Source: Chitinophaga pollutisoli (GTDB lineage: Bacteria > Bacteroidota > Bacteroidia > Chitinophagales > Chitinophagaceae). Taken from it: DNA of 64,000 nucleotides. The notes beneath the pieces were generated by a model. It worked only from the letters and a program-made list of their open reading frames with translations, was not told where the DNA came from and searched no databases. The DNA lies in assembly GCF_038396755.1 (NCBI RefSeq), contig NZ_CP149822.1, forward strand, positions 186,001-250,000, read 5' to 3'. A program made the translations under genes and the position numbers. This document shows, one piece after another, positions 1,745-23,600 of this stretch (the first letter of the stretch is position 1; each line of letters starts with the position of its first letter).

Positions 1745-1986
1745 GGTAAATAAGTGAACATTCTCTTCAGGATGGCCTAGAGGAGCGGAGCGGTCAGCGC
1801 CTTGCCGTATGTTTTGCAGTTCAAAGAAAAACAATAGCACGACTGTGCTTTGTAGTACACCTGCAGGCTTGGTGTCTTGTCGCCGTGGAACGGGCAGTGT
1901 AACCGGGCGTGCTTGTCCGGTTTGAGCCCGTAGTGCGATAGCGCCTGGGCGAGCGTAAGGCTTTGTTTGATCTCCGATATCTCCAT
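1745..1986 (-). pseudogene. Truncated element primase remnant (unit A)
   Basis: The N-terminal ~64 residues match the two longer primase copies at 8019-10763 and 17175-19890 almost residue for residue, including the CHC2 zinc-finger pattern CPFHGDKTPSLQVYY...CYCFSLNC. After CKTYGKALT the frame jumps to sequence equivalent to the downstream segment (APLTAQPRETILERMFTYF in the intact copy), so about 50 codons are missing. The recognisable homology ends near 1745 at MFTY. The Toprim and ATPase parts are gone. It diverges from the XRE gene at 2139 exactly as in the complete units. I read it as the surviving end of a third element whose remainder was deleted. Confidence 0.8.
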
Positions 1987-2004
1987 TGCAAAAATATTTT
2001 ACCC

Positions 2005-2091
2005 GTTCACATTTGAACTAAAAATGTAACATCTGACTTTTATAAACAAAAATATCTGACTTATTATATTCACATATGAACGGTATCTTTG
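2005..2091 (+). promoter_or_regulatory. Divergent control region of unit A with two TTCA-N4-TGAA palindromes
   Basis: Between the primase remnant and the XRE gene lie two similar palindromes: gttcacatttgaac (2005-2018) and ttcacatatgaac (2069-2081). Two direct copies of atctgactt lie between them (2031 and 2053). The second palindrome is directly followed by a Bacteroidota-type -7 box TATCTTTG (2084-2091) for the regulator gene. The arrangement fits auto-repression by the adjacent XRE protein; binding is inferred. Confidence 0.55.
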
Positions 2092-2138
2092 CCATACACG
2101 CCTGATAACGGGCTTTTTAAACCATAAATAACCCAAAA

Positions 2139-2480
2139 ATGAGCAGCTTCGGTAAAAAATTAAGAGAGTGCTGGGACGCAAAGGGGCTTTCGCAAAGCGA
2201 ACTGGCAAAGCTGCTCAATACAAACCACTCCATCATCGGTAAATACGAACGGGATGAGGTAAAACCCACCATTGACGTGGTAAAACGCCTCGCAGAAGAA
2301 CTGGAGACGACGGTGGGGTTCCTGCTCGGCGAGACCAAACAGGTGAACGTGCTCAAAGACCCCGCCATGCTCAAAAGGATCAATGATATTGACGCTCTGC
2401 CAGAAACAGACAAACAACATATATTATACGCCCTCGATGGCCTGCTCCGAGATGCAAAGACCAGTGCAGCTTATAAATAA
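2139..2480 (+). CDS. XRE-family HTH transcriptional regulator (unit A)
   Basis: A 113-aa protein with an N-terminal Cro/CI-type helix-turn-helix (about residues 5-60; LSQSELAKLLNTNHSIIGKYE) and a short alpha-helical tail ending TSAAYK. It is a paralogue of the regulators at 10922 and 20041: the scaffold and the tail pattern (ALPETDKQHILYALDGLLRD) are shared, while the recognition helix (NTNHSIIGKYE) differs. It is divergent from the primase gene and preceded by palindromic operator candidates, so it probably represses its own promoter and the element operon. The rest of this element is deleted, so here it may persist only as a regulator of the neighbouring immunity/tip region or as an immunity function against related elements. 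Confidence 0.85.
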   Translation: MSSFGKKLRECWDAKGLSQSELAKLLNTNHSIIGKYERDEVKPTIDVVKRLAEELETTVGFLLGETKQVNVLKDPAMLKRINDIDALPETDKQHILYALDGLLRDAKTSAAYK

Positions 2481-2518
2481 ATAATCCCTGACCTATAACG
2501 GCCTGGGATTATTTATTT
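2475..2518 (+). terminator. Terminator overlapping the regulator stop codon
   Basis: A perfect 14-bp AT-rich stem (aaataaataatccc, 2475-2488, with gggattatttattt, 2505-2518) starts inside the last codons of the XRE gene. It is symmetric and could act in both directions, separating the regulator from the leftward immunity gene. Confidence 0.7.
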
Positions 2519-2601: not shown

Positions 2602-2955
2602 TTATAAAAGTTTTCCCTTTCCCCAATCTCCTAAATGCTGTACAACTTCGAAGTCAGCAAACTTGTTCACGCCAGAACCTTCTATTGTACCTACATTTAA
2701 TACCATCCCCTTTACTATAGGATGTTTAAGTTGCAATTCATTTAAAATAAATAAGTCAACTTCTACGCTATCGCCCTCGCGTATTTGCATATCAGATACT
2801 AAACTACAAGATGTTGCTTCTCCTTCTACCTTCTTATACCATACAATAGGCCTTATTCCCTTTCGAAAAGGACCTATGAAACTGTACTTAGAATTTTTAA
2901 TAAAATGAAAAACACCTTTAACTAAGACACTCTTAATATTTCCTTCATTAATCAT
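2602..2955 (-). CDS. Putative immunity protein with EF-Tu domain 3-like barrel
   Basis: A 117-aa protein starting 4 nt after the orphan toxin tip stop, the usual position of an immunity gene. From about residue 25 it follows the order of EF-Tu domain 3: a GIRPIVWYKKVEGEATS segment resembling the EF-Tu YRPQFYFRTTDVTG strand, REGDSVEVDLFI resembling PGDNVKMTVTLI, and KGMVLNVGTIEGSGVNKF resembling LRFAIREGGRTVGAGVV. The GTP-binding domain is absent, so it is a free-standing barrel. No signal peptide is visible, so it is likely cytoplasmic. The immunity role is inferred from position. The EF-Tu resemblance is my own reading and needs a profile or structure comparison. It is AT-richer than the element genes, as are the toxin tips. 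Confidence 0.6.
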   Translation of the reverse strand: MINEGNIKSVLVKGVFHFIKNSKYSFIGPFRKGIRPIVWYKKVEGEATSCSLVSDMQIREGDSVEVDLFILNELQLKHPIVKGMVLNVGTIEGSGVNKFADFEVVQHLGDWGKGKLL

Positions 2956-2959
2956 CTTA

Positions 2960-3964
2960 CTATTGCTTTTTAACTGGAGTAATATTTACGGACTTCAAAT
3001 TCTGATTCACAACCCCAATTTGCGAACGATCTATCGTAGCATTAGGACCAACAAACTCATCAACCTGAACTGCAGTATTAAGCGGTTTCCCTTTACCCAA
3101 CAAGGATTTAGGAACTGTAATTTCTAGATTAAATTCGCCCGCAAGAGGTAAATTATTCCAAGCATCCAAACCTTCTTTGGTTTGCCAGAACTGCTTCACC
3201 TCCATTCCAGGACCTAGTGAAAGCTTTCCTGTTTTCGCAATACTTTCAGCCTCTTCTTTTGATATACTACGATAAAGAGTTACCATATCTTCCCCACTAC
3301 TCCTTGCTATTGGTCGAATAGAATTTCGTGCACTCCAAAGTGCAACCGATGCCCCCGCTAACATTAAAGCTCCATTAACCACATTCCTAGGTCTCCAACC
3401 TTGCTTGAATGTTTCCTTTAACGCCTCTTTAAAGCTTAAGTTATTCCCGTACTCGAAGATCCAGGTCGACAAATTGTGCCTCCCTTTCGTGTCCTTCGCA
3501 AACTCAGCAAAGGCGTCAACACCCACAACCCACTCATCCTGATGCAGGCCGGCCTTATCTCCTTCAGTATGATGATAACGTGCGATCCAATACGATGATC
3601 CATTTGATGAGATAAACCCTCGCATTTCGTAGTTCCCCAACCTCACAGACTTCGTCTCTTCTCCATCCGGAACTTTCGCTACTCTCATATGTGCAATCCC
3701 TGTTGGCTTAAAAGTAGGATCAAACTCCTCAGCCCCATCCAAGTCTATGAATTTAATCGGCTTATTCCCAGAAAATTGATAGGGAGTGTAATGCGCATAT
3801 TTTTTTGTCAACGGATCCACTGACAAGAAGCGTCCTAGTCTTGAATCATATATACGGAACCCATAATCCTGCTGCGAGCCTTCGATACCCTTGACCTCAT
3901 TATCATTCTCCTTCCCGTTAAACCCATACCTACAGCACCTCACGGCATTTTTCCTATAGCGCAC
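2960..3964 (-). CDS. Orphan Rhs C-terminal tip with ART-like toxin domain
   Basis: 334 residues starting with a GTG directly preceded by an in-frame stop 9-12 nt upstream. It begins in the Rhs core signature (CRYGFNGKENDNEVKG, IEGSQQDYGFRIYD, FLSVDPLTKKYAHYTPYQF, NKPIKFIDLDGAEE) shared with the full Rhs protein at 20668, and lacks all upstream Rhs repeats. The variable part ends in a ~110-residue domain beginning VTLYRSISKEEAESIAKTG, with KQFWQTKEGLDAW further on. This opening resembles ADP-ribosyltransferase-type toxins (Tyr-Arg on strand 1), but a catalytic glutamate cannot be assigned with confidence. It is displaced from the Rhs gene and probably silent unless recombined onto a full-length rhs. 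The small gene just downstream is its likely immunity partner. Confidence 0.7.
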   Translation of the reverse strand: MRYRKNAVRCCRYGFNGKENDNEVKGIEGSQQDYGFRIYDSRLGRFLSVDPLTKKYAHYTPYQFSGNKPIKFIDLDGAEEFDPTFKPTGIAHMRVAKVPDGEETKSVRLGNYEMRGFISSNGSSYWIARYHHTEGDKAGLHQDEWVVGVDAFAEFAKDTKGRHNLSTWIFEYGNNLSFKEALKETFKQGWRPRNVVNGALMLAGASVALWSARNSIRPIARSSGEDMVTLYRSISKEEAESIAKTGKLSLGPGMEVKQFWQTKEGLDAWNNLPLAGEFNLEITVPKSLLGKGKPLNTAVQVDEFVGPNATIDRSQIGVVNQNLKSVNITPVKKQ

Positions 3965-4221
3965 CCCGGCCTTTTATGATACTGTCCGTCTCAAAGAACT
4001 ACCCGCAAGATAATGGTTTATCCCTTACCACCTGATCGTATATTAACCCACCTCACCTCCGCATCAAGTCCACCTCATCTCCACCTTATCTCCACCAACC
4101 GTATAGCCATCCTCCTCTGATCATAGGGCTTTCCGATGCTTTTTACCCGACCTTTCTCCTTTCAGGCAAAATACCATCAACTGCAACCCTTCTTTTTTCA
4201 ATTGAAAGAAAAAAACAACAT
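3965..4221. repeat. Conserved spacer upstream of orphan tips (unit B copy)
   Basis: About 257 nt almost identical to 12989-13233. It contains short direct repeats of atctccacc and ends with a tcaattga-centred AT palindrome (about 4189-4214). No gene is visible. Together with the tip starts it marks the recurrent junction between element and Rhs tip. Confidence 0.7.
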
Positions 4222-4297
4222 CATCATGGATAAGGCAGGTGGCCGGTTGTGAAGTGCCTGGCGCTGGTTGCGATGGCCACCTGCTTTATCCATGATG
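4222..4297. repeat. Left terminal hairpin of the long inverted repeat (unit B)
   Basis: Arms 4222-4244 (catcatggataaggcaggtg...) and 4275-4297 pair at 22 of 23 positions around a 30-nt loop. Same position and form as 13234-13309 in unit C. Possible recombinase or replication site; function inferred only. Confidence 0.75.
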
Positions 4298-4705
4298 CGC
4301 CAAGATCGTCCCACCGCCAGGGCAGCGATCCGGTGCCGCCGTTCGCGGCAGGACGGATCCTTTCGTCCGTTCCTGAACTATCGCCATTCGCTGCATTCCC
4401 GCCACCCACCGCCATGCGGCGGCGAACACGGGAGCGGGAGTGCGAGCTTTAGCGAGCACGGAGCTACCGGCAGGGCGCCGCCGCCGGCAGGTGGCGGACT
4501 AAATGGGCAGTGGAGGGATGCGCAGCGATAGCGGAGCAGACCGGGAACTGCCCGAACGGAGGGTAAAAGGGAGGGCGCACAGAAGAACACTGCCACCAGG
4601 GCAACCCGACCTTTTTCCCGCAGTGAGACCGATTTTCCTTTTCAGTGTAGAGGGAACAGAGTGAGTAAACGGGGAGCGCGGGGATTTCACACAGGGAGGA
4701 AGGCG

Positions 4706-4960
4706 CGTCGGGATGACAGGATTCGAACCAAAAGGGGGATTTCGTGCCCTGCGCTGGATTCGAACCAGCACACTCAGAACCAGAACCTGAGTACCCTAAA
4801 ATGGTGGTTGCCCGACCTGGATTCGAACCAGGACAAACAGAACCAAAATCTGTCGTACTTGCCGGCCACCCGCAGCCTGGGAAGCTGATGCCTGGTATTT
4901 GGTGCCCAGAACTGGACTCGGCACCACGCAGAACAGGGAAGATACAACAATCCCCGCTGA
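4706..4960 (-). other. tRNA 3'-half-like array (Gly-CCC-, Gln-TTG- and Gln-CTG-like)
   Basis: Read on the minus strand, this stretch shows in order: a glycine-type anticodon arm (loop ttcccaa, from about 4895); a Gln-like piece with anticodon loop ttttggt, perfect T-arm and 3' end tcgggcaacca (about 4805-4871); a second Gln-like piece with loop ttctggt and a T-arm (about 4742-4800); and a further T-arm fragment ggttcgaatcctgtc (about 4708-4735). None has a 5' acceptor strand matching its 3' strand, so they are not complete tRNA genes. A related array is at 13741-13930. They resemble attachment-site remnants or a decayed tRNA cluster. Confidence 0.6.
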
Positions 4961-5334
4961 CACACTCCATTCCTCCATCACAACGAAGGTAAAGCGGTCT
5001 CGCTCCGGCAAAAGGCAAGGGCCAGCCCCTCCCTGCCAGTGTTCCCCGAACCGCCCTTCCCTTTTGCCTGCACTCGGGCAGCTCCCGGTCTGCTTCGCTA
5101 TCGCTGCGCAGCCCTACGCCGCCCACTTTGTCCGCCACCTGCCTGCCCTGCCCTCCTACGGTGGCTGCGCGCGTGCCGCGCTCCCGCCCCCGTGGCGGCC
5201 AGGGCATGGCGGTGGACAGGTGGCGGAAGCGGTTGTTAGAAGCGGAAGACGATGGAACAGGGACAGGCTGCAGTGCATGACCTGCCGCGAACGGCGGCAC
5301 CAGCTCATCACCCGGCGGCAGGATATTCTTGGCG

Positions 5335-5410
5335 CATCATCGGCCGGTAAACAGGCGGGGAACCCTCTTACTTCGGGCTCCCCTGCACGCCTGTCTACCG
5401 GCCGATGATG
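5335..5410. repeat. Right terminal hairpin of the long inverted repeat (unit B)
   Basis: Arms 5335-5357 and 5388-5410 pair at 22 of 23 positions around a 30-nt loop. Compared with the unit C hairpin (14334-14408) several stem bases differ on both sides so that pairing is kept (cggcc/ggccg here, caggc/gcctg there), which argues that the fold itself is selected. Confidence 0.75.
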
Positions 5411-5431
5411 TGGCTTTCCCTGCCTTTTGCA

Positions 5432-6073
5432 CTACTCTACTTTCAAACGCTGCACTGCCGCTTTGCTTAGACCCGTGAGCTTCATGATTTCAGCAACGGC
5501 GTAACCCGACGATTTCATCTGCCGCGCTATCTGCCGCGCCTGATCCCGGGCGCCCACCCTTTCCCCGGTAAGCTCCCCAGCCTTTCGTCCTTCCTCTCTG
5601 ACCTTCGCCTCCAGCTCATAATCCAGCATGTACTTTTCGCTCCGTTCCAGCTTCGCCAGCAGCCCACTCTCCGCAAAACTGTAATAACCCGTTTCACTGA
5701 TGATGTAATGATCCTCCACAGGAACATGCAGCAGCCGGCCGCACTGGATCATACGGTCCGTCATATCCTCATCCGCCGGCGAGGGCACCAGCCGGCCGCT
5801 CGGGTGATTATGCACCAGGATGATCTTGACACTCCGCTTCTGTAAAGCCAGGCTGTAGATTTCCATCGGCTCCGCTACCGTCCGCGTCACCGAACCCATA
5901 CTCACCAGCTCGATCAGCAGGATCGTGTTATCCGCCGCCAGCCCCAGCACCCACAGGTGTTCCCGGTTGCGATCGATCTTCTGTTCCCGCCGCAGCAGCA
6001 TCCGCATGATCTCGTGCACGTCACGGCGTGCCTCGATTTTAGTTTTCTTTAGTTTGCTCAATCGTATCTCCAT
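5432..6073 (-). CDS. RadC/JAB-domain protein with Rpn-like C-terminal tail (unit B)
   Basis: 213 aa. Residues ~15-145 form the RadC-type JAB metalloprotease-like fold with the motif HNHPSG at 88-93 followed by PSPADEDMT, so the usual metal-binding His-x-His and Asp are present. The N-terminal helix-hairpin-helix of classical RadC is absent. The last ~60 residues (GELTGERVGARDQARQIA, then MKSSGYAVAEIMKLTGLS) resemble the tail of Rpn-family transposon-associated nucleases, probably a DNA-contact helix-turn-helix; the Rpn nuclease core is not present. RadC-like genes are common passengers of integrative elements, but their reaction is not settled. It lies 64 nt downstream of the two recombinase genes and is probably cotranscribed with them. 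The start ATG at 6073 begins MEIRLSKLKK, aligning with its paralogue at 15236. Confidence 0.85.
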   Translation of the reverse strand: MEIRLSKLKKTKIEARRDVHEIMRMLLRREQKIDRNREHLWVLGLAADNTILLIELVSMGSVTRTVAEPMEIYSLALQKRSVKIILVHNHPSGRLVPSPADEDMTDRMIQCGRLLHVPVEDHYIISETGYYSFAESGLLAKLERSEKYMLDYELEAKVREEGRKAGELTGERVGARDQARQIARQMKSSGYAVAEIMKLTGLSKAAVQRLKVE

Positions 6074-6137
6074 TTGGTGTACGCTTTGAAGTTAACAATA
6101 TCAAGGATGAACAACCCCGTTCATTCCGTTCATTTTT

Positions 6138-6989
6138 CTATCCCATCGGGTGGTAAGCCGCTACCGCCGCCGCCAGTTCCCCGTCACCAGCCTGCCGGTA
6201 ACGCTCCGTGCTCGACGGGTACTTATGCCCGGCAAACGCCTGTACCGCTGCCAGCCCCTCGCCTGCTTTCAGTTTGAGGGCAATCACGCTTTGACGTATC
6301 CGCTGTGCGCTGGCCGGGTAATGCCGCAGCACATGCTTCACGATGTCATCCGCATGCATGGGATTTCCCCGCAACCCCAGTAGCAACCGGTCTGTTTGTC
6401 CTCCTTTCAGCAGCCGCGGGCGGATTTCACGGAGGTAGGCGTAAAGCAACAGCACCTGCGAAGCCTGTAGCCGAAGTACCCGCGCATTCGTCGAGGCCGT
6501 GCCGGCAGTGTGCACCGTCCCGCTATCCAGGTCGATATCCGCTACGCAAAGCGCGGCGATTTCAGCGGGTTTTAACGCCTGGTAGACCAAAAGACCTACA
6601 AGCACCCGGTCGCGGTAATCCAGCGCCGTATAACGTCCCTTTTCACCGTTTGCCGGCAGTAACGCTTCCAGCTCCGCAGGCGATAGCAGGTCCTGCAGCT
6701 GGATATCCCGGCTGCGCACATCCCGCAAACGGATCCTTTTTGCCGGGTTGTCCGTACGCGCACCACTGGCCACCAGCCAGCCGTAATAAGCCTTTACCGC
6801 ACTCAGTATCCCGTTCAGCGTCGAGGCGTTGCCGTAACGGCTGCGCACCACGCCCAGCCACTGCACCACATCCCCATAACCAGCACCGGCTGCACCGGGA
6901 TACCCCGACAGGTAAGCCACGATCTCGCGCTGGTAAGCCTCAGCCGTCGATGCCGCGTAACGCGATTGCAGGTAAGCCGCCAGTGTCAT
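6138..6989 (-). CDS. Degenerate tyrosine recombinase partner (unit B)
   Basis: 283 aa with the two-domain layout of XerC/D-type recombinases: a SAM-like N-terminal domain (1-95) and a C-terminal catalytic-fold domain. Key residues are altered. The position of the first catalytic arginine reads QALKPAE (Lys140), and the HxxR box reads QRIRQ (Gln229, Arg232). The late GH (254-255) and a candidate nucleophile Tyr264 (SSTERYRQ) remain. The same substitutions occur in the paralogue at 15298, so they are inherited rather than random decay. The gene overlaps the intact recombinase upstream by 4 nt (6986-6989), so the two are translationally coupled and probably act as a pair, with this one structural or regulatory. 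Confidence 0.85.
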   Translation of the reverse strand: MTLAAYLQSRYAASTAEAYQREIVAYLSGYPGAAGAGYGDVVQWLGVVRSRYGNASTLNGILSAVKAYYGWLVASGARTDNPAKRIRLRDVRSRDIQLQDLLSPAELEALLPANGEKGRYTALDYRDRVLVGLLVYQALKPAEIAALCVADIDLDSGTVHTAGTASTNARVLRLQASQVLLLYAYLREIRPRLLKGGQTDRLLLGLRGNPMHADDIVKHVLRHYPASAQRIRQSVIALKLKAGEGLAAVQAFAGHKYPSSTERYRQAGDGELAAAVAAYHPMG

Positions 6990-7840
6990 AAGCCGCCGTT
7001 TTGGAAGTGAGCATAGATCTGCGTCGTATCCGCATGGCGGTGCCCTAAAAAATCCCGCACCTGTTCCAGGGACATACCCCGTGCCAGCAGGTGCGTGGCG
7101 ATGGAGTGCCGCAGCCGGTGCGGCGTCACCACCGCATCCAGTCCCGCACGTTCGCCCAGCTCCCGTACCAGCCGACAGAGGCGATCACCGGTCAGCGCCT
7201 GGCCACGGCTGCCCACCAGCAGCCGCTGCGATCCGCCCGGCAACTGCACCGACAACCAGCGCAGGTAAGCCCCCAGGCTCGCCGCCGCACGGCTGGCCAG
7301 CGGCACTACCCGCCGACGGGCGCCCTTACCACGCCGCACATACAGCACGCCCCGGTCCGGCCACACGTCCACCGCTTCCAGCGCCACTGCCTCACTGCGC
7401 CGAAGGCCACAGCTATACAGCAGGTGCAACACCGCATGTTCCCGTTCATGATGGGCGGCTGCGAACAGGGCGCCCGTTTCTGTCACCGACAGCGGCAGCC
7501 GCCTGCCATCTCCCAGCCTGGGCAACTGTAGTCCGCTCAGGGGATGGTGATCACTGGTACCTACCGCCTGCCGCCAGTCAAAGAACACCCGCAGGCTGTA
7601 CAAGTAATGATCCACCATCTTGCCGCTGAGCACGCCTTCCCCGCGCTGCGAAGGGCGCACCTGCAGGTACGCGTAAAAAGACAGAATATTGGCAGGCTGC
7701 ACTTCCCCAGGTGGCAAAGCACAGAAGACAAAGAACTCCCGCGTGCAGCTTTCCAGCATCCGCACGCTCCCTGCGCCGTAGCCCACCGCACGCAGGTAGT
7801 CCCTGAAGCCCCCCAGGGCTCCGGTTTGTAGCTGTTCCAT
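6986..7840 (-). CDS. Tyrosine recombinase/integrase, catalytically complete (unit B)
   Basis: 284 aa, XerC/XerD-like length. N-terminal core-binding domain ~5-95, catalytic domain ~110-280. The full catalytic set is visible: Arg147 (CGLRRSE), Lys172 (RRGKGARRR), His241-x-x-Arg244 (PHRLRHS), His267 (LGHRHAD) and Tyr276 (TTQIYAH). It probably integrates, excises or resolves the element. It is first of the recombinase pair and overlaps the degenerate partner. Upstream, at 7917-7967, are three spaced 12-bp repeats which may be its binding sites or promoter control. It is closely similar to 16146-17000, with most differences in the N-terminal half, the part expected to contact specific DNA. Confidence 0.9.
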   Translation of the reverse strand: MEQLQTGALGGFRDYLRAVGYGAGSVRMLESCTREFFVFCALPPGEVQPANILSFYAYLQVRPSQRGEGVLSGKMVDHYLYSLRVFFDWRQAVGTSDHHPLSGLQLPRLGDGRRLPLSVTETGALFAAAHHEREHAVLHLLYSCGLRRSEAVALEAVDVWPDRGVLYVRRGKGARRRVVPLASRAAASLGAYLRWLSVQLPGGSQRLLVGSRGQALTGDRLCRLVRELGERAGLDAVVTPHRLRHSIATHLLARGMSLEQVRDFLGHRHADTTQIYAHFQNGGL

Positions 7841-7916
7841 AAATTGTTGGGTTTAAAATTCCAGTTGAAGAAGAAGAAGGCTTTTCACCTCCGGGTAACA
7901 AACTTATTTGATAGCA

Positions 7917-7967
7917 CTATGGCGGTTTGCCTATAGCTACGGCGTTTTTCTATATCTATGCCGTTTT
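7917..7967. promoter_or_regulatory. Three spaced 12-bp repeats upstream of the recombinase pair (unit B)
   Basis: Direct repeats ctatggcggttt (7917-7928), ctacggcgtttt (7937-7948) and ctatgccgtttt (7956-7967), spaced 20 and 19 nt start to start. The same three repeats with the same spacing occur at 17074-17124. Position between the primase 3' end and the recombinase start fits recombinase arm sites, an attachment site or an operator. Confidence 0.65.
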
Positions 7968-7992
7968 AAAAACAGGGCGCTTGAACATTTCC

Positions 7993-8085
7993 TGGAACGC
8001 TGGAACGCCACCATACCTTTAAGCCACCACAGCGGATTCCAGCGTTCCACTGGCGTTCCATTGGCGTTCCGGGGATGGAACGCCA
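7993..8085. repeat. Iteron-like repeats TGGAACGCC at the 3' end of the primase gene (unit B)
   Basis: Six copies of a ~10-bp motif in both orientations: tggaacgct (7993), tggaacgcca (8001), agcgttcca (8041), tggcgttcca (8051), tggcgttcc (8062) and tggaacgcca (8076). Four lie inside the last codons of the primase gene. Unit C has an equivalent cluster with a related but different core. Likely origin iterons or initiator binding sites; inferred. Confidence 0.65.
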
Positions 8086-10763
8086 GCACTGTTCCGAAGG
8101 GCATCCAACTGTTCGAGCAACTGTGTACGCACCTGCTCGCGCATACCCGTGTAATGATCCCACCAGCACACCTGGTAGGTAAAGCCACGGTTCACATGAC
8201 CACCCGTGATCCGCACGTATTCCAGCCGCACCAGGTCGTTCACATAACGGAACAGCTGCGTCTTGCTCACACCCAGCGAATGGCGGATTTCACGCAAAGT
8301 AAAAACCGACCGCTCGCTGTCTTTGCCGTGCTGCTTTTGCAGGTAGGCTTTCAACTGCTCGTAAAACTGCCGCAGGCTCCCGTCCAGCTCGTCCACCTTC
8401 AGCACGATGCTGTCAAACATGATATCCACCGCCGCCGCCAGATCACTCACCACCGCGATCACCCGCCCCTGCCCGTCGCGCTCCCGCTGGTGCTGATGCA
8501 ACAGCGCCACCATTTTTACAAAACTCAAAAACAGGTCGTTGAGCCGCCGCAGCTTGTGCGCCTGTTCAGGGAGACGCAGTTTACCCGCAAAGGGGTTAAC
8601 CACACCCAGCGGCTCCAGTGCCCGCACCAGGTTGCGCACCTGCAGCTTGGCGCGCTCCTCATCGCCCTGGCTGGCAGCGCCCGCCGCTACCCGGTTCTGA
8701 TAAGCCAGGATTTTTCCCGTCTGCGCTACGCTCTCATCCACTGCCACCAAAAACACCCGGCTCATGTTATCCTCATAAATCTCCCCGCGCGTCGTGCAGG
8801 CAAGGCTGCCGATAGGGCCACGCACTGTCTTCTGGCCGCTCGTGATCCGACCGTCGTCCAGCTTGATACTCGTCGCGCTGTTCAGTTCCCCGTTGCTCTG
8901 CAGTTCCCTTAATGCGAACTCCGCTTCTTCGGAGAGGCCGTCGATATCTTCCAGGCACAGCAACCGGTTCACGAAGTAAGTCTCCGGGTAATTGTACAGC
9001 ACCTTATCGCTGACACGGGTCAGCCGCGTCACAGACTCAGGCGGCATGCAATCGCTGATCTGCCGCAGCAGCCGCGTCTTGCCACTGCCGCTCGAGCCCT
9101 GGATCAGCGCGTGTAAAGGCTGCGCCATCTTATGGCTCAGTGCGATCAGCAGCAAAAACAATCGCGGATTTTCTTCACCGATAATGCCGGTGTTGCCCAG
9201 CAAGTCATTGAGCCGAGTCAGCAGGTCAGGCGCCTGCAAAAACGATAGCGCCGCGTTGCGTTCCGCAGCTGTCAGCGGGTAGCTCGCTACCTGCGGCGCC
9301 GCTGCCTTCACCTGCTCATCCCGGGAGCCATCCAGCGCATCGGCAAGGCTACGCAGCTCATCAGCGATAATAGTTGCATCCAAACCCAGCGCCACGCCCA
9401 CTTCCCGCGCCAGCCGCTCCACCTGCTTATCCTCGTACAGGTCCACCTTGTGCCGCCGCTTCTGGCCGCTACCCTTGTGCGCAATGGCCAGCGTCACCTT
9501 CAGGCTGTCGCCGGTCTTGGGGATACCACCCTGCACCGTGTACACCGCCGTGGCCGCCGTGTACCGCAGCCGCATCTGGTCGCGGCTGTCCAGTACACCG
9601 GCAGCCGGATACGACGGCACAGGTAAAGGGATCGGCGGAGCGTATACGGGGAGTAATTCTTTTTCAAATGTGTTTTCAGTTGAAGTCCCGGATGTAGTTC
9701 CGGTTGAAGTAAAAAAGGATTGCCGTTCGGCGATCAGGTGTTCCAAAACTGCCGGATCGTGGCCGGCCGCAAGGCTCGCCAGATCCTCGCCATCCGGCAG
9801 CGTCATCGCCGACAGCGCTACGCCCGGCACCTGGTCACGCAGTTGCAACGCGTACTTCTCTGTAGCCGCTTTGCCCGCTGCGTCGCCGTCGAAGGCGAAG
9901 ATAATCTCAGCGAGGTTGCCCAGGGAAGCCACTGCCTCCCGGTGCTCCGGTGTAAAGCCATTGGTGCCGTAACAGGCCAGCACGCTGTAATCCTTGCGGA
10001 TGGTTTCCGACTGCAGCAGCACCGCCGCGTCGATCACCGATTCCGTAAGGATCAGCCGGCGGGTGTCCGGCTGCGGGTAACATGGATAAAGGCCGGCGCG
10101 GTCTTTTAAATAAAAATGCCGCTGGTCGTGGTCATTGGTGATAGATCGGAAGTAGAGGCCTTTTATTTCACCGGCCTTGCCGCGCAGCGCGAACACCACG
10201 CAACCCCGCCCGAACACTTTATACGCCTGACCACCTTCCCGCACGTTTGTTCCCCAGGCGATCAGCAGGCCGGCGGACTCGCAAGCGGCCACCAGCTCGT
10301 CATCCTTGCGACGACCGTGATGGAACTGGCCGCTGTTATACCCTACTTCGATCTGCGTGGCGTCCAGCCCCCGGCTGCGGATATAATCCTGCGCAGGCTT
10401 GCTGTTATGCACCGCGTTGCGGAAGTAGGTGAACATTCTTTCCAGGATGGTTTCACGCGGCTGGGCGGTCAGCGGAGCGGCGACCGGTGCGCCGCCGATC
10501 AGCTCCCGGCAGTACCGGATCGCTCCGCCTTTAGATAAACCTTCCTTGTGCATCACAAAATCAATCACATCCAGCGCCTTACCGTGCGTCTTGCAGTTGG
10601 AAGAAAAGCAATAGCACGACTGCGTTTTGTAATACACCTGCAGGCTCGGCGTCTTGTCCGCGTGGAACGGGCAGTGCAGCCGGGCGTGTTTGTCCGGTTT
10701 AAGCCCGTAGTGCGCAAGCACCTGGGCAAGTGGAAGTGATTGTTTGATTGCTGTGATATCCAT
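8019..10763 (-). CDS. CHC2/Toprim DNA primase fused to AAA-like ATPase and winged-helix tail (unit B)
   Basis: 914 aa from ATG 10763, which aligns with MDIAEIKQSL/MEISEIKQSL of the other copies; the longer frame upstream crosses the regulatory palindrome and is rejected. A DnaG-type zinc finger is seen at 31-57 (CPFHADKTPS...CYCFSSNC). A Toprim-type region follows at ~225-330 (LILTESVIDAAV, IIFAFDGDAAGKAA). After a linker comes an AAA-like ATPase with Walker A GSSGSGKTR near 552-560 and an acidic LCLEDIDG box. The last ~110 residues form a winged-helix-like domain (FTLREIRHSLGVSKTQLFRY). It probably primes and initiates replication of the element. The winged-helix part differs strongly from the unit C copy, as do the iterons overlapping its 3' end. 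It diverges from the XRE regulator. Confidence 0.88.
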   Translation of the reverse strand: MDITAIKQSLPLAQVLAHYGLKPDKHARLHCPFHADKTPSLQVYYKTQSCYCFSSNCKTHGKALDVIDFVMHKEGLSKGGAIRYCRELIGGAPVAAPLTAQPRETILERMFTYFRNAVHNSKPAQDYIRSRGLDATQIEVGYNSGQFHHGRRKDDELVAACESAGLLIAWGTNVREGGQAYKVFGRGCVVFALRGKAGEIKGLYFRSITNDHDQRHFYLKDRAGLYPCYPQPDTRRLILTESVIDAAVLLQSETIRKDYSVLACYGTNGFTPEHREAVASLGNLAEIIFAFDGDAAGKAATEKYALQLRDQVPGVALSAMTLPDGEDLASLAAGHDPAVLEHLIAERQSFFTSTGTTSGTSTENTFEKELLPVYAPPIPLPVPSYPAAGVLDSRDQMRLRYTAATAVYTVQGGIPKTGDSLKVTLAIAHKGSGQKRRHKVDLYEDKQVERLAREVGVALGLDATIIADELRSLADALDGSRDEQVKAAAPQVASYPLTAAERNAALSFLQAPDLLTRLNDLLGNTGIIGEENPRLFLLLIALSHKMAQPLHALIQGSSGSGKTRLLRQISDCMPPESVTRLTRVSDKVLYNYPETYFVNRLLCLEDIDGLSEEAEFALRELQSNGELNSATSIKLDDGRITSGQKTVRGPIGSLACTTRGEIYEDNMSRVFLVAVDESVAQTGKILAYQNRVAAGAASQGDEERAKLQVRNLVRALEPLGVVNPFAGKLRLPEQAHKLRRLNDLFLSFVKMVALLHQHQRERDGQGRVIAVVSDLAAAVDIMFDSIVLKVDELDGSLRQFYEQLKAYLQKQHGKDSERSVFTLREIRHSLGVSKTQLFRYVNDLVRLEYVRITGGHVNRGFTYQVCWWDHYTGMREQVRTQLLEQLDALRNSAGVPSPERQWNASGTLESAVVA

Positions 10764-10781
10764 GATGTGGATAAATTTAGT

Positions 10782-14613: not shown

Positions 14614-14618
14614 ATCCT

Positions 14619-15236
14619 TCACGATACTTTCAGCCGCTGGATAGACGCTTTCTCTAACCCCGTCAGTTCCATGATTTCCTTTACTGCATAACCTTTCGCC
14701 TTCATCTGACGGGCGATTTCACGGGCATTGTTCTTTTCCCCGATCTGTTTGCCTTCTTTCACACCCAACGCCTTTACCTCGTATTCCAGCATGTACTTGG
14801 TGCTTTGCTCCAGCTCCGCCAGTAAACCATCCTCCGCAAAACTGTAATACCCTTTGTCGCTGATGATGTAATGGTCCAGCACCGGCACTTTCAGCAGCCG
14901 GCCGCACTGGATCATCCTATCCGTCATTTCCCGGTCGGCAGCAGAGGGTTTCAGCATCCCGCTCGGGTGGTTATGTACCAGGATGATCTTTACACTGCGC
15001 TTCTGTAAAGCCAGGCTGTAGATTTCCATCGGTTCCGCAATCGTCCTGGTAACCGAACCCATGCTCACCAACTCGATCAGCAGGATCGTGTTGTCCGCCG
15101 CCAGCCCCAGCACCCACAGGTGTTCCCGGTTGCGGTCGATCTTCTGTTCCCGCCGCAGCAGCATCCGCATGATCTCATGCACGTCCTGCCGCGCCTCGAT
15201 TTTTGTCTTCTTCAACTTACTCAACTTGATTTCCAT
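14619..15236 (-). CDS. RadC/JAB-domain protein with Rpn-like C-terminal tail (unit C)
   Basis: 205 aa from ATG 15236 (MEIKLSKLKK), chosen because it aligns with the unit B start; an upstream ATG at 15296 would add 20 residues overlapping the spacer after the recombinase stop. HNHPSG followed by PSAADREMT keeps the JAB metal ligands. The C-terminus (IGEKNNAREIARQMKAKG, then EIMELTGLEKASIQRLKV) is a shorter form of the Rpn-like tail. It is downstream of the recombinase pair by 61 nt and ends next to the tmRNA fragment. Confidence 0.83.
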   Translation of the reverse strand: MEIKLSKLKKTKIEARQDVHEIMRMLLRREQKIDRNREHLWVLGLAADNTILLIELVSMGSVTRTIAEPMEIYSLALQKRSVKIILVHNHPSGMLKPSAADREMTDRMIQCGRLLKVPVLDHYIISDKGYYSFAEDGLLAELEQSTKYMLEYEVKALGVKEGKQIGEKNNAREIARQMKAKGYAVKEIMELTGLEKASIQRLKVS

Positions 15237-15297
15237 TTTAGGGTTCGCTTTGAAGTTAACAATACAAAGGGTGAACTCCCCGTTCATTCTGTTCATT

Positions 15298-17000: not shown

Positions 17001-17073
17001 AAATTTTCAGTTTAAAATCAGTTGAAGAGAAAAGAGGTTTTTCACCTCCGGGTAACAAACTTATCAGATAGCA

Positions 17074-17124
17074 CTATGGCGTTTTGCCTATAGCTACGGC
17101 GTTTTTCTATATCTATGCCGTTTT
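17074..17124. promoter_or_regulatory. Three spaced 12-bp repeats upstream of the recombinase pair (unit C)
   Basis: ctatggcgtttt (17074), ctacggcgtttt (17094) and ctatgccgtttt (17113), with 20/19-nt spacing as in unit B. The surrounding ~75 nt is nearly identical between units although the neighbouring iterons have diverged. Confidence 0.65.
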
Positions 17125-17150
17125 AAAAACAGGGCCTTGAGCATTTTTCG

Positions 17151-17244
17151 CCGGACACCGGACGCCAGCCTTTTTTAGACCTTTTCCCGCGCCAGTGGCA
17201 CATCCTGGCGTCCGGTCTGGCGTCCGGCCACTTCCGGACGCTGG
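17151..17244. repeat. Iteron-like repeats CCGGACGCC at the 3' end of the primase (unit C)
   Basis: Copies at 17151 (ccggacacc, partial), 17158-17168 (ccggacgccag), 17205-17215 and 17217-17227 (ctggcgtccgg, inverted, 12-nt period) and 17234-17244 (ccggacgctgg). Same location as the TGGAACGCC repeats of unit B but with a changed core. Confidence 0.65.
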
Positions 17245-19890
17245 CCATATTCAAGTGTTGCCAGTTGCGACTGCAGGTCGCTCTTTAACTGCTCCCGCAA
17301 CAGCGCATAAGCATCCCAATATGCGATCCGGTAACGGAAGCCCCGGTTGATATGCCCGTACTGCTGCAGGTAACCCAGCTCCACCAGCCGCGACAGGTAC
17401 AGGCATTGCTGCGATTTGCCCATCCGAAGGCGGTCACGGATATCGAAGCGCGTAAACTCACGCTCACGGCGATCCTCGCCAACAAAGGATTTCAGCTGCT
17501 CGTAGAACTGCCGCAGGCTCCCGTCCAGTTCGTCCACCTTCAGCACGATGCTGTCGAACATGATATCCACCGCCGCCGCCAGATCGCTCACCACTGCGAT
17601 CACGCGCCCCTGCCCGTCGCGCTCCCGCTGGTGTTGATGCACGAGCGCCACCATCTTCACAAAGTTCAAAAACAGGTCGTTGAGCCGCCGCAGCTTGTGT
17701 GCCTGTTCAGGGAGACGCAGTTTCCCCGCAAAGGGGTTAACCACCCCCAGCGGTTCCAATACCCGCACCAGGTTGCGCACCTGCAGCTTGGCGCGCTCTT
17801 CCTCTCCATGACCCGTAACGCCCGCCGCTACCCGGTTTTGGTAAGCCAGTATCTTCCCCGTCTGCGCCGCACTCTCATCCACCGCGACCAAAAACACCCG
17901 GCTCATGTTGTCCTCGTAGATCTCCCCCGCGTCGTGCAGGCAAGACTCCCGATAGGGCCGCGCACTGTTTTCTGGCCGCTGGTGATCCGACCGTCATCCA
18001 ACTTGATCGACGTCGCGCTGTTCAGCTCCCCGTTACTCTGCAGCTCGCGCAACGCGAACTCCGCTTCTTCGGAGAGGCCGTCGATATCTTCCAAACACAG
18101 CAACCGATTGACGAAGTAGGTCTCCGGGTAATTGTACAGCACCTTGTCGCTGACACGCGTCAGCCGGGTGACGGATTCCGGTGGCATGCAATCGCTGATC
18201 TGCCGCAGCAGCCGCGTCTTGCCGCTGCCACTCGATCCCTGTATCAGCGCATGCAACGGTTGGGCCATCTTATGGCTCAGCGCGATCAAGAGTAAAAACA
18301 GGCGCGGGTTTTCTTCTCCGATGATACCGGTATTGCCCAGCAAGTCATTGAGCCGGTTCAGCAGGTCAGGCGCCTGCAAAAACGATAGCGCCGCGTTGCG
18401 TTCCGCGGCTGTCAGCGGGTAGCTCGCTACCTGCGGCGCTGCTGCTTTTACCTGCTGGTCGCGGTAAGCGTCCAGCGCATCGGCCAGGCTCCGCAGCTCA
18501 TCGGCGATAATAGTTGCATCCAAACCCAGCGCCACACTCACTTCCCGCGCCAGCCGTTCCACCTGCTTATCCTCGTACAGGTCCACCTTGTGCCGCCGCT
18601 TTTGGCCGCTACCCTTGTGCGCGATGGCCAGCGTCACCTTCAGGCTATCGCCGGTCTTGGGGATACCGCCCTGCACCGTGTACACCGCCGTGGCTGCCGT
18701 GTACCGCAGCCGCATGTCATCACGGCTATCCAGTACGCCGGCAGCCGGATGCGACGGCACAGGTAAAGGGATCGGGGGAGCGTATACAGTGGGTATTTCA
18801 GTTGCAGCAGGGATTGCAGGAGGATTTCCAGTTGAAGAAAAAAGGATTGCCGTTCGGCGATCAGGTGTTCCAATACCGCAGGATCATGACCCGCCGCAAG
18901 GCTCGCCAGGTCTTCGCCATCCGGCAGTGTCATCACAGACAGTGCAACACCGGGCACCTGGTCGCGCAGTTGCAAAGCGTACTTTTCGGTAGCGGCTTTG
19001 CCCGCTGCGTCGCCGTCGAAGGCCAGGATGATCTCCGTGAGGTTACCCAGGGAAGCTACCGCTTCCTGGTGCTCTGCAGTAAAGCCATTGGTGCCGTAGC
19101 AGGCCAGCACGCTGTACTCCTTGCGGATGGTTTCCAGTTGCAGCAGCACCGCCGCATCGATGATGGATTCCGTTAGGATCAGCCGGCGGGTGTCCGGCCG
19201 CGGGTAACATGGATAAAGGCCGGCGCGGTCTTTTAAGTAAAAATGCCGCTGGTCGTGGTCATTGGTGATAGATCGGAAGTAGAGGCCTTTGATGTCACCG
19301 GCCTTGCCGCGCAGCGCGAACACCACGCAACCCCGCCCGAACACTTTATACGCCTGACCGCCTTCGCGCACGTTCGTTCCCCAGGCGATCAGCAGGCCGG
19401 CGGACTCGCAGGCGGCCACTAGCTCGTCATCCTTGCGGCGGCCGTGGTGGAACTGGCCGCTGTTATACCCGACCTCGATCTGAGTCGCGTCCACCCCACG
19501 GCTGCGGATGTAATCCTGCGCCGGCTTGCTGTTATGTACCGCGTTCTTGAAGTAGGTGAACATGCGATTAAGGGTAGTTTCGCGGGGCTGGGCGGTCAGC
19601 GGTGCCGCCGCAGGAGCGCCGCCGATCAACTCCCGGCAGTAACGGATCGCCTCGCCCTTGCTCACCCCTTCCTTGTGCATCACAAAGTCGATCACGTCCA
19701 GCGCCTTGCCGTGCGTTTTGCAGTTCGAAGAGAAGCAATAGCACGTCTGCGTTTTGTAGTACACCTGCAGGCTCGGCGTCTTATCCGCGTGGAACGGGCA
19801 GTGCAGCCGGGCATGCTTGTCTGGTTTTAAACCGTAGTGCGAGAGCACCTGGGCGAGAGGAAGGCTTTGTTTGATTTCTGCGATATCCAT
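17175..19890 (-). pseudogene. Element primase-ATPase broken by two frameshifts (unit C)
   Basis: Homologous over its full length to the 914-aa unit B protein. ATG 19890 (MDIAEIKQSL) opens the zinc-finger/Toprim part. At the A run 18838-18843 one base is missing relative to unit B (gaagaaaaaagg versus gaagtaaaaaagg), and the frame continues in the 17903-18760 segment with the Walker A motif GSSGSGKTR. At 17921-17932 another base is missing (tctcccccgc versus ctccccgcgc), and the frame continues in 17175-17906. The C-terminal winged-helix part (FTRFDIRDRLRMGKSQQCLY) differs strongly from unit B. Unless these are assembly errors, this unit cannot make its own full-length primase and may depend on unit B. 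Fragments could still be translated as separate proteins. Confidence 0.8.
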
Positions 19891-19967
19891 CTGTGGATAA
19901 ATTTTAGATTACTACCTATTGGTCGCAAATCTAACGCATCCATCTTTAATGAACAAGTTTTATTCGT

Positions 19968-20004
19968 TTTGATTAATACTTTTAGGTCAACTAAATTTGC
20001 AATA
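19968..20004 (+). promoter_or_regulatory. Promoter and operator candidate of the unit C regulator
   Basis: A -33 TTTG (19968-19971) and -7 TAAATTTG (19992-19999) with a 20-nt spacer fit the Bacteroidota promoter consensus. A tttag-gtcaa-ctaaa palindrome (19981-19995) overlaps the -7 box, placing a repressor site on the promoter. Confidence 0.65.
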
Positions 20005-20040
20005 CCCTACTAAAACAGGTCAGTTTAAATACGTTTCAGT

Positions 20041-20373
20041 ATGACAATCGGTGCTCACATCATGCTCCTGCGCAAGCAGCAAAACCTGTCCCAGGCCGAA
20101 CTCGGTAAACGCATCGGCACCTCCGGCGATATCATCGGAAGGTATGAACGCGACCTGATGATGCCCTCCATTGAGGTTATTATCAAAATTGCGGATGTGC
20201 TCGCCGTCTCTATCGACTACCTCGTAGGCAAAACAAATCTCGTCCTGGATCAGGCAACCCTTAAAAGACTGGAGGATATTAACGCCCTGCCCCCTGAGGC
20301 TAAAGAGTATGTACTCGGACATATTGATATGATGATCAGGGATTTTAAAAACAAAAAAGCATACGCTAAATAA
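20041..20373 (+). CDS. XRE-family HTH transcriptional regulator (unit C)
   Basis: 110 aa; Cro/CI-type helix-turn-helix at ~3-60 (LSQAELGKRIGTSGDIIGRYE) and the shared tail (ALPPEAKEYVLGHIDMMIRD, NKKAYAK). It is divergent from the primase pseudogene. The recognition helix (GTSGDIIGRYE) is distinct from units A and B, and its promoter region has its own palindrome. It is convergent with the immunity gene of the full Rhs and separated from it by a terminator. Confidence 0.87.
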   Translation: MTIGAHIMLLRKQQNLSQAELGKRIGTSGDIIGRYERDLMMPSIEVIIKIADVLAVSIDYLVGKTNLVLDQATLKRLEDINALPPEAKEYVLGHIDMMIRDFKNKKAYAK

Positions 20374-20379
20374 AGTAAA

Positions 20380-20401
20380 ACGCCGCCTCATTGGGCGGCG
20401 T
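20380..20401. terminator. Terminator between the unit C regulator and the Rhs immunity gene
   Basis: An 8-bp GC-rich stem (acgccgcc, 20380-20387, with ggcggcgt, 20394-20401), flanked by A-rich and T-rich sequence; usable in both directions. Confidence 0.75.
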
Positions 20402-20429
20402 CTATTACATTTATCTAAAAATTTTGATT

Positions 20430-20675
20430 TTACTTCTCGACATGATAAGCACGAAGAACTTCTAAAAGAGTGCCCTTAAAATTGTCCCCGTCAAACCTAA
20501 TCATCTCCCTTTCTCCTTCAGAAAAAGTTACAAATACTGTATACTGACTATCCGCTCTTGCCCCATCCATCTTGATGACAACAACATTACCATCTTTCCT
20601 GATTAACTCGAAGCAAGCCAATAATTCCTCAATCGTTGGATTAGATTTTCTTAACACTGAAATTATATCATTCAT
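20430..20675 (-). CDS. Putative immunity protein for the Rhs Fic/Doc toxin
   Basis: 81 aa; starts 8 nt inside the end of the rhs gene (overlap 20668-20675), the classic toxin-immunity coupling. An N-terminal helical part (DIISVLRKSNPTIEELLACF) is followed by beta strands (VVVIKMDG, YTVFVTFSEGEREMIRFDG). No signal peptide. I do not recognise the family. The Fic-inhibitory (S/T)xxxE(G/N) motif is not clearly present, so it may block the toxin by a different contact. The immunity role is inferred from the overlap and position. Confidence 0.65.
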   Translation of the reverse strand: MNDIISVLRKSNPTIEELLACFELIRKDGNVVVIKMDGARADSQYTVFVTFSEGEREMIRFDGDNFKGTLLEVLRAYHVEK

Positions 20676-23600
20676 TCTTAATTAATTTTTTAGCTATTTC
20701 TGAAACATCTGTCAATTTCCCCTTTGCCACTTCTGTGGCTACGTTCGACATCTCATCTTTCCCTACTGTAGACAAACCATGCTTTTTAGCAAAAGATTCG
20801 AATGCAGCGACCGCTGTACGCTTATTCCCATCGATAAACATATGCCCATGAGAAATCGAACGGAAAATTGCAGCACCTTGCTCTGCGGCAGTTTCATAGT
20901 ACATAGCAGAATTTATTGCTGACATAGGCGTGGTGTTCAATATTACTCCACCTCCCTCCGTAGTCTTATTAATTGCAATAATTTCATTTGCGAAAGAAAC
21001 ATCATCAAACGGCTCTGCTAATCGCAATGCAGGACTCGACCCTTCTAACGCTTTTGAACCATACATTGCAAGCCTTGCCTCTTTACTCGCACCAGAAAGA
21101 GCCATTCTTGCCGCGCTCATTTCTGTCCGGGCTACATTATACGCTTGCTTCCCATATTTTGCGGCAATCTTCCAAGCTGCATTTAATGCTAAATCTCCAA
21201 CAGCTGCTGTAACGGCCTCTCCTGCGCCATGAAGTATTCTAAACGAAGCTCCTCCTTGCGTTTCATAAAGTTGACGATACAATTGAGTCTCTTCCGCCTT
21301 CTGCTTCTGAATCTGCCTCTCCAAAGATGACCGCGTATCAGCCCGCACACTTGGCTGACGATGCACAGCTGATGCAACATGCGCATTGCCATGTATCATA
21401 ACCATATTTACACGGCTAAGAACAGGAGGTCTATACGTATAAGTACCTGTTGTATTTTCCTCAGCACCATCAAGATCTGTTGCCCAAACAGGAGTATTCC
21501 CCGCAAATTGATAGGGCGTATAATAAGCATAATCTGAAGTTAGCGGATCCACACTTAGGAACTTCCCCACCCTCGGATCATAAATCCTCATCCCATAATC
21601 CTGCTGGCTTCCCTCGATGCCCTTAACTTCGTTATCATTCTCCTTTCCATTAAACCCATAACGATATCGCTTCCCAAGATAAGAATTTTCCCAATTTCTT
21701 CCCGGCATTATACTACCGAATGAATAATAATCCTGCATGCTCATCACAGTAGCCTTTCCTTCACTGGTTTTTGCTCCGGTCACCACGACCATCGTATTCC
21801 CTAGGTGGTTCGTTAATTCATACAAAGTATTGCCAGGCGCCTCATTCCAGGCAGTAGTGAGCGTTTGGGAGCTATTGACCCCCAACCGCCAGTAGCCCAG
21901 ACGCGAACTACCGTACAAATGCTGCTCTTCCCATGTTACAACAGCCGTACCGTTGTCTGAATATAATGCCAGCAAATTACCCTGCGCATCCCTTACATAC
22001 CAGGTCCGAACAGCAGGCCCGCCTAAGCTCACCTCCTTATAGACCCGATTCCCCGAAGGGTCATACTTATAACGGATATACCCATTATTTTTTTGAATTT
22101 CCTCGATTTTTCCGGTCACCGTCCAGGTAATATGCCTGATTCCCTCGCTGGAATCCTTCGTTAAATTTCCTATATCATCATATTCATAATTATCTACAGG
22201 CTGTGTCTTGAGATCCGTTGTATAATTGGCGTTAGCCGGCGCGGCATCTGTAATATGCCTCAATCGGTTTTGTGTCAGCTTTCCCCCAATTACCGGATAT
22301 GCGTAAGTCAGATCATCCATCAATATACCGCCTGCATCATGTCCGTTTCGCTGAAAAGTCTTGATATTACCATTCGCATCATATGCAATATTCTCCCCAT
22401 ACTTTATGTCGGCAGCAAAATTCCCATTACCAATTCCTGCATGATGCCGCATCTGCGTCAGTCTGTTCAGTTGATCATAGCGATAAGTATAACCCACTGT
22501 TTCGGTGACCGTGCTTCCATTCGTACGCCCCATAGTAACACGGGCTATGTTGCCGTTAAAGAGCGACCTGCCGGTTCCTGGCGTTTCATTGTACGGCCAG
22601 GCTAGCGGAAAATCAGGCGCAGGGCCTGTTGGCGGACTGGAAACAGGAGCATAGTCACCGTTGAAGTAATCCAGTGAGTAATTAAAGACATCCGTAGCGA
22701 AGGTGGCGTTAATCCCCGCATGACCATCCTTGCCGATATCCACACCCTGTTTTTGGCCATTGATTGCTTTCAGCCATCCCTGCAAGGTATAGACAAAATC
22801 CAGTCCCTGGATGTTTCCACCCAATTGCGTCCGAGCCAACGGCCCGTGTTTATAATACTTGTAGTACGCATTCTGCCGGGAACTCGCAATCCCCCAATCA
22901 TCAGCCGATGTTGTCTGAATACCTGTAATCGCTTCCGTTAACCGATTTTCAGCATCATACCGATATTGATATATGAACTTGTTCGCTGCATTATGCTTAT
23001 ATCGCACAAATAATACTTTTCCACTGGCCAGATCATAATTGTAATCTATCCGCTTGAAATGAAAATCTGGCAGTTTCATCAGCATGGATTTTACATTCCC
23101 TAATATATCATAACTGTAAATTGTAGCGACCGGACTAGCTGCCGGATGCTCATACAACAAACTCGCTGACACCCGCTTCCGGAGGTTCTCCTGTACCAGA
23201 TTGGCTTGTACATCCTCCTGGTAAGCCCCTTGCCCTAACATCCCTGTCAGGCTTTCGTCGTACACATTGATAACATAATGTTTACGGGTAGCTTTATTGT
23301 TGTCGATGAATGCCCTCGCGAGGCTGTCACTCATGAAAGTAGTAGGCCATTCGGTGGGTGCGGCCTTCTCTCCTGCTTCGAGTACGCGCCCCTGGTTATC
23401 AAATTCCGTATAACTCATCCGCCCATCTTTCAGCTGCTGAGCATTACGCGAAGCAACCACCCTGCCGAGCAAATCGTACCACATATCACTTACGCCGGCA
23501 TCCGGTGACTCCTGACGAAATACACCATTCAGCGATTGATAGGCATAGGTCGTATTCAAATGATGTACCGGAAAAATGCGGCTGTGCTTTGTTTCAGTAG

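Follow-up and report, generated by a model that had tools for sequence, protein, structure and literature searches.

By what route polymorphic toxins exchange their tips, and where the spare ones reside between cells, is an old open question, and it is raised again by an array found behind an rhs toxin gene of Chitinophaga pollutisoli. The array lies in a stretch of 64,000 nucleotides (contig NZ_CP149822.1 of GCF_038396755.1, positions 186,001-250,000, forward strand), called the window below, which sits within a single contig of 6.08 Mb. Downstream of the rhs gene, which is on the minus strand, there are two elements of 8.7-9.0 kb (C and B) and a remnant (A). From one Rhs core to the next, the repeat unit comprises a toxin tip, a putative immunity gene, a reversed XRE regulator, a primase, two tyrosine recombinases (TyrI and TyrII), RadC and a non-coding right end. 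What does such a block do next to each tip? The best explanation is, in our view, that the elements are an integrative family of Bacteroidota with the conserved core of rhs toxin genes as the attachment site. We consider it likely that they insert into the rhs core by site-specific recombination and thereby replace the tip; to an autonomous circle we give roughly an even chance.

The place of the crossover is seen from the junctions. In the main Chitinophaga lineage the rhs backbone or the element joins the tip within TATGGGTT (codons YGF). Two units of genome G006 are 99.98% identical, and the identity starts at TATGGG plus two bases leftward. The codon that flanks the core on its left differs in G016, being AGG for the rhs gene and CGT for the element end. 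Sites 4 and 5 of G001 share the element end on the left and then read TATGGGTTC and TATGGGTTT. Together these junctions place the exchange within TATGGGTT. In the distant lineage of G002 the sequence is TATTATCCGTTTGGG in the rhs gene, TATTATCCATTTGGG at the next site and TATTATCCATTTGGA in the last orphan. This places the exchange within TTTGG, which lies 66-81 bp to the left of where the core starts in that lineage. Both crossover windows lie within T(A/T)TGGGTT or its GGA form; since this sequence is missing from the YLYNGKE and YKYNGKE cores, we do not make it a rule. The junctions of tandem units have the same short sequence at both element ends, at a fixed position. A palindromic attachment site, proposed by eye on a 9-base match, was unconvincing and was dropped.

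Orphan tips behind an element begin at few points. Left of the Y-x-F/Y-N-G codons, 29 of 38 distinct ones lack any readable backbone; 8 begin at YYPFG and one, in G034, is longer and comes with a primase remnant (5 duplicates and 13 cores too close to where a contig begins were left out, and L150 was moved by hand to the YYPFG group). Another 24 cores, neither attached nor directly behind an element, are of mixed kinds (degraded genes, displaced tips, attached cores that a contig end cuts, G006 orphans beyond the distance limit) and were not used as a control. The fixed, lineage-specific junctions, narrowed to 5-8 bp, point to the element's own tyrosine recombinases as the probable agent, rather than to the homology of the cores by which, according to the initial annotation, the tips might be swapped.

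The attached rhs gene is usually in frame: an open frame of 150 codons or more precedes 36 cores, and in 33 of these it has the backbone motif and continues across the core into a tip. In G039 it is the attached tip whose core diverges (YGFNGMEKSDEIKGE), and the orphan behind the element that has the usual core, as expected of a newcomer tip. A locus with the element can also be set beside one without it. The rhs loci of G036 and G011 are 88.5% identical over 11.3 kb. A stretch of 48 bases around the core is the same in both, and the alignment stops about 100 bp past the core start; G011 carries the element, and G036 has no primase or TyrII match but has an XRE gene after the tip. In G036 the flank gene of the window is matched only by a 52% relative, which lies in the opposite orientation. 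In G004 (L144; G004:C11:188001-206000) a counterpart of the tip B domain, at 50% identity, is accompanied by a 45% relative of the DUF416 protein. This toxin rides an element with TyrII 28% identical to that of the window, and the tandem copies in G004 are identical over the 4,759 bp compared in both. Thus, toxin and neighbour gene travel together between element lineages.

Linkage of the block to Rhs tips extends across Bacteroidota. A search by the primase alone against genome contigs gave 70 loci, of which 67 are labelled as Bacteroidota groups and three (L013, L037 and L074) otherwise; L074 has none of the element's genes. An Rhs core lies within 4.5 kb upstream in 63 of the 67 element starts that have at least 1.5 kb of upstream sequence (72 starts in all), and within 3.5 kb downstream in 26 of the 27 TyrII ends with at least 3 kb. 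Eight further regions, chosen by us among the hits of the genome survey that had not been retrieved earlier, all belong to distant lineages (TyrII 27-32%); they have the core upstream in 8/8 and downstream in 7/7, the eighth contig ending first. The hidden Markov model (HMM) of the core was built from the same loci and misses divergent cores, for example that of L065, which is counted as an upstream miss and whose upstream open reading frame (ORF) holds TIGR03696 nonetheless. No core is found by the HMM upstream in L064, from the same species, nothing is recognised upstream of the element in L055, and L052 has no Rhs core downstream. In L025 (35-9430), also an upstream miss, a SprB-repeat protein of the type IX secretion system and a 521-aa ORF precede the element with no Rhs gene, and the target may possibly be a gene of another type. 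A block consistently unlinked to rhs tips in related genomes, which the initial annotation had named as fatal to its reading, is therefore not what is seen; its suggestion that the block carries alternative tips is supported.

Some of these loci deserve a separate remark. L013 and L037 are elements in metagenome-assembled genomes labelled Bacillota and Micrarchaeota, possibly binning errors. In L151 and L152 the match is limited to the MCM half of the primase-helicase. The element contig of L064/L065 (Apibacter muscae G8) has a coverage of 678 in its title, and another contig of the same assembly 221; several copies or circles might give this.

Occurrence of the element is patchy. The primase, fragments counted, is present in 31 of 79 Chitinophaga genomes, versus 69/79 for relatives of the gene upstream of rhs (within window positions 29027-37950). 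TyrII under a strict limit is found in 18/79, and the primase in 11 of 247 genomes drawn across the phylum, the genome of the window included. At least two elements about 7-10 kb apart are present in 9/79 genomes (G000, G001, G002, G004, G006, G007, G016, G023 and G037), with four consecutive elements in a 7.97 Mb contig of G001. Tandem units may be nearly identical (99.6-99.98% in G006, G016 and G001) or divergent (stacked units of G007, whose TyrII proteins share only 57% identity). TyrII has a match in one of 72,556 plasmid records, an Aureibacter tunicatorum plasmid recorded as complete, which holds the element set twice, with the same protein accessions. Among the 7,995 candidates scored in a protein search, 850 are TyrII relatives at 1e-10. 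RadC is found only in close Chitinophaga relatives among the related loci scanned.

Within the window, the cores are spaced by 9,012 bp (element B) and 8,720 bp (element C), and the functional unit is better cut from core to core (3929-12940; 12941-21660) than from XRE to tip. The Rhs homology of the two orphans begins R|YGFNGKENDNEVKG, and in most Chitinophaga relatives YR|YGFNGKE. The tips had been described as Rhs cores with different toxin ends, and this is borne out: the Rhs-associated core TIGR03696 is above cut-off in the attached gene, tip A and tip B, and variable ends follow. Tip C has a weak Fic/Doc match (PF02661, 24.1 bits, cut-off 24), and the toxin end of tip B a weak deaminase match under the cut-off (PF14441, 21.3 bits, cut-off 27). 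Aligned as had been proposed, per 300 bp, B and C are 69-94% identical across the right end, RadC, recombinases and primase and only 49-55% across XRE, neighbour gene and tip, the block holding the Rhs core being at 70%. Hence, the tip, neighbour gene and XRE are the variable cargo, and the recombination-replication block is the constant part. The tandem array of homologous elements with orphan Rhs tips is thereby confirmed. The full gene order attributed to three units holds for B and C; unit A is a remnant without recombinases, made of a tip, a small ORF, XRE and about 190-210 bp of the primase start.

The TyrI catalytic residues R147, K172, H241, R244, H267 and Y276 are present in 58-59 of 59 sequences, and R126, R232, H255 and Y264 of TyrII in 59-61 of 62. 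TyrI scores 90.4 bits against the integron integrase model TIGR02249, far under its cut-off of 265; among 50,697 phage records none matches TyrII, viral contigs give no primase match by a pattern scan, and no phage structural or packaging gene is found among the scanned unit B proteins. On modelling, the primase is a DnaG fused to an MCM-like helicase, which suggests a replicating circle. The primases of unit C and of G042 (L114 10707-13415) are each broken into three ORFs, with the breaks at similar positions; the second and third ORFs of unit C share 4 bases.

In the window the right ends are GC-rich, and across relatives a fairly short hairpin is common in this region. The best hairpin beats all 20 shuffles (two-base blocks) in 30/36 right ends, in 23 of those at no more than 450 bp from the core. 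The motif GTTCTTT(G/A)A is found within 160 bp left of the core in 33/52 orphan rows (duplicates included), mostly 60-90 bp off. The sequence GTTCTTTGAG may resemble boxA. The long inverted repeat, listed by the initial annotation as a shared part of the unit, is not general: among 30 right ends, arms of at least 90 nt are found only in the window, and it was rejected as a family signature. ARAGORN calls a tRNA-Gln at 4805-4883, inside a right end. With scores under the gathering cut-offs, Rfam gives the same tRNA-Gln, a second one at 13807-13867 and a 3' fragment of tmRNA at 14565-14615. No tRNA is called in 53 of 54 related loci, and L048 has a tRNA-Pro about 7 kb past TyrII. In view of these scores and loci, a tRNA as target or cargo was rejected and is taken as lineage-local.

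Coordinates of the array and its parts (window positions)
Feature	Position	Strand	Basis or remark
Attached full rhs gene, 2843 aa, with tip C	20668..29199	-	TIGR03696 39.8 bits, cut-off 32.5
Crossover window TATGGGTT in attached rhs core	21653..21660	-	window defined in relatives
Element C, core to core, 8,720 bp	12941..21660	-	repeat spacing and B/C alignment
Small ORF after tip C, putative immunity gene	20430..20675	-	by position only; no Pfam match
XRE-type regulator C	20041..20373	+	
Primase C, three ORFs	17175..19890	-	18640-19890, 17903-18760, 17175-17906
TyrI, tyrosine recombinase, unit C	16146..17000	-	79% to unit B copy
TyrII, tyrosine recombinase, unit C	15298..16149	-	92% to unit B copy
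RadC-like protein, unit C	14619..15296	-	
Right end of element C, non-coding	12941..14618	-	hairpins, long inverted repeat, GTTCTTTGAG at 13001-13010
Crossover window in orphan core B	12933..12940	-	
Element B, core to core, 9,012 bp	3929..12940	-	repeat spacing and B/C alignment
Orphan tip B, Rhs core and toxin end	11936..12988	-	TIGR03696 43.7 bits, cut-off 32.5
DUF416 protein, putative immunity gene of tip B	11302..11889	+	
XRE-type regulator B	10922..11284	+	start taken from sequence
Primase-helicase B, intact	8019..10763	-	likely start = residue 40 of 953-aa ORF (M40 invariant)
TyrI, tyrosine recombinase, unit B	6986..7840	-	
TyrII, tyrosine recombinase, unit B	6138..6989	-	
RadC-like protein, unit B	5432..6073	-	
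Right end of element B, non-coding	3929..5431	-	inverted repeat 4483-4595/5034-5146, hairpin ~4221-4297, GTTCTTTGAG at 3990-3999
Crossover window in orphan core A	3921..3928	-	
Orphan tip A, Rhs core and toxin end	2960..3964	-	TIGR03696 46.1 bits; toxin end without Pfam match
Small ORF after tip A, putative immunity gene	2602..2955	-	by position only; no family
XRE-type regulator A	2139..2480	+	
Remnant of primase start, end of truncated unit A	1777..1986	-	

Outside the array, the large ORFs at 29027-37950, upstream of rhs, have no Pfam or NCBIfam matches where scanned. A short tandem repeat at 41816-42042 has two copies, spaced by about 96 bp, with 80% identity over 131 bases.

We propose the following sequence of events. 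A circle would carry the core, its own tip, a putative immunity gene, XRE, the DnaG-MCM primase-helicase and two simple tyrosine recombinases. With the arrival of the circle, the recombinases would join it by a crossover to a chromosomal rhs gene, at the core that matches. The rhs backbone would thus continue in frame into the incoming tip, and the previous one would be shunted behind the element as an orphan with its own copy of the core. Repeated entry at one core would build arrays, and recombination between neighbouring cores would lead to the loss of an element with re-attachment of the stored tip. We infer the activity of the system, the circles, excision, autonomous replication and transfer between cells from sequence, as well as the roles of XRE, RadC and the hairpins; the reserve with which the initial annotation spoke of mobility still applies.

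Several observations weigh against this scheme. No circle, excision or new insertion was observed; the two ends of contigs L017, L022 and L039 overlap exactly, by 141, 299 and 75 bases respectively, as expected of circles and of tandem arrays alike. The attached gene of G006 has a stop just ahead of the core in the present assembly. G036 and G011 are not isogenic, being 11.5% apart at the locus, and the G011 contig ends before any displaced tip. The stretch left of the crossover in G001, G035 and G037 is decayed rhs sequence with stops; it occurs only on the element side, which puts the crossover to its right, and indicates that the element end formerly held more core, as homologous displacement would also give. 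G034 retains a longer readable core fragment. The site codons are conserved (GGG 39/39; TAT, AAG and GAG 38/39 each), and two CAG codons further on equally so (28/29, 33/33), thus this conservation supports the site weakly. The catalytic Lys and first His of TyrII are not conserved at 90%. Among the scanned unit B proteins (small ORFs in part only) there is no relaxase or secretion gene, and transfer is therefore unexplained; this agrees with the initial annotation, which saw neither relaxase nor phage structural gene. Finally, elements are 77-86% identical between species with rpoB 93.5-93.8% identical, which does not exceed the rpoB expectation, so that similarity lends no support to recent transfer.

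Could the tips move by homologous recombination between rhs cores, as in the model of Jackson et al. for enterobacteria, with the recombinase-primase block as a passenger? Each orphan has a core copy able to recombine, some element ends hold the decayed core sequence described above, and C. varians (L054) has two tips that no element precedes and that retain longer fragments of the core. Fragments of variable length, expected from that model, are not the pattern behind elements, where 29/38 orphans start at one point and 8 at a second, with one exception and some decayed ends. With the crossover narrowed to 5-8 bp and the block linked to tips across the phylum, we regard this possibility as quite improbable. 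The block might instead be a resident tip switch of rhs loci, vertically inherited, shufflon-like in effect and no longer mobile between cells. Element similarity not above the rpoB expectation would fit, as would a unit B in which no relaxase or phage gene is recognised and an element with no phage or viral-contig match; patchy occurrence (31/79 and 11/247 genomes), the plasmid copy and the stacking of divergent elements do not fit, and a primase-helicase would be superfluous for pure switching, so that we hold a resident switch to be unlikely.

The near identity of several tandem units might suggest that the arrays are simple tandem duplications or assembly artefacts of a single locus. However, by blastn B and C are 84-89% identical and carry different tips; their difference of 11-16%, together with the single 6.08 Mb contig, speaks against a duplicated assembly, and the artefact admitted by the initial annotation is set aside for the window. 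Two G007 units share only 57% of TyrII, and arrays occur in the single-contig assemblies G000, G001 and G006 and on the plasmid recorded as complete. We consider such an origin extremely improbable, and return to the integrative family as the preferred reading.

Some integrative elements with tyrosine recombinases carry a replacement 3' end of the target gene. They are similar to the family proposed here in the fixed short site inside a gene and in the restoration of the gene by the element's copy. However, unlike in those, the end restored here is a different toxin domain, so that insertion alters the product; moreover, there are two recombinases, and no conjugation or phage genes are recognised. 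Integron cassettes and shufflons are comparable in that circular cassettes are stacked at one site, or a C-terminus is changed site-specifically, unlike which each unit here encodes recombinases and a primase-helicase, and no segment inversion is seen. Elements of the Tn554 and RIT kinds have TnpA and RitA/B/C recombinase signatures as their marks (PMC8138268).

The closest precedent is the displacement of Rhs tips. Jackson et al. 2009 (PMC2935791), in the passages on tip displacement, propose homologous recombination with core fragments of variable length; a new tip displaces the old one, which is kept downstream with a core fragment, and a circular intermediate is proposed. The model as given there required a stable circle, and no integrase was known alongside Rhs. 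In the present elements, by contrast, each tip comes with a recombinase pair and a primase-helicase, and the junction has a fixed position. Zhang et al. 2012 (PMC3482391) remark on XerC/D recombinases beside polyimmunity loci and suggest that they aid the accumulation of immunity genes. Recombinases are thus close to polymorphic-toxin genes in both cases, whereas that remark covers immunity-only loci, and in 300,000 of the 357,715 characters of the text neither the word integrase nor the word primase appears. Rhs tip arrays in Ornithobacterium are attributed to displacement (PMC13183296), and orphan domains are discussed via homologous recombination (PMC8125069); no such element is shown in the relevant parts of either paper. 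The arrangement had been called undescribed, and among the matches listed we found no earlier description in the open-licence full-text literature.

Hence, relative to homology-driven swapping, the explanation shifts to a dedicated site-specific element. If true, the element supplies the integrase for the tip-exchange puzzle as posed in the 2009 account (PMC2935791). The elements could further be the episomal tip pool predicted by Jackson et al., as autonomous circles copied by a DnaG-MCM enzyme of their own, which would go into rhs genes at lineage-specific cores through dedicated recombination and trade tips across the phylum as a reversible last-in-first-out stack; we see this extension as evenly balanced between true and false. 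Since a recombinase pair and a replication protein accompany each tip at a defined site, the question can be tested with two proteins and two short DNA sites. If the proposal is true, it also gives a rule for reading the arrays: the tip fused to the backbone would be the last arrival, and the junction would mark the crossover.

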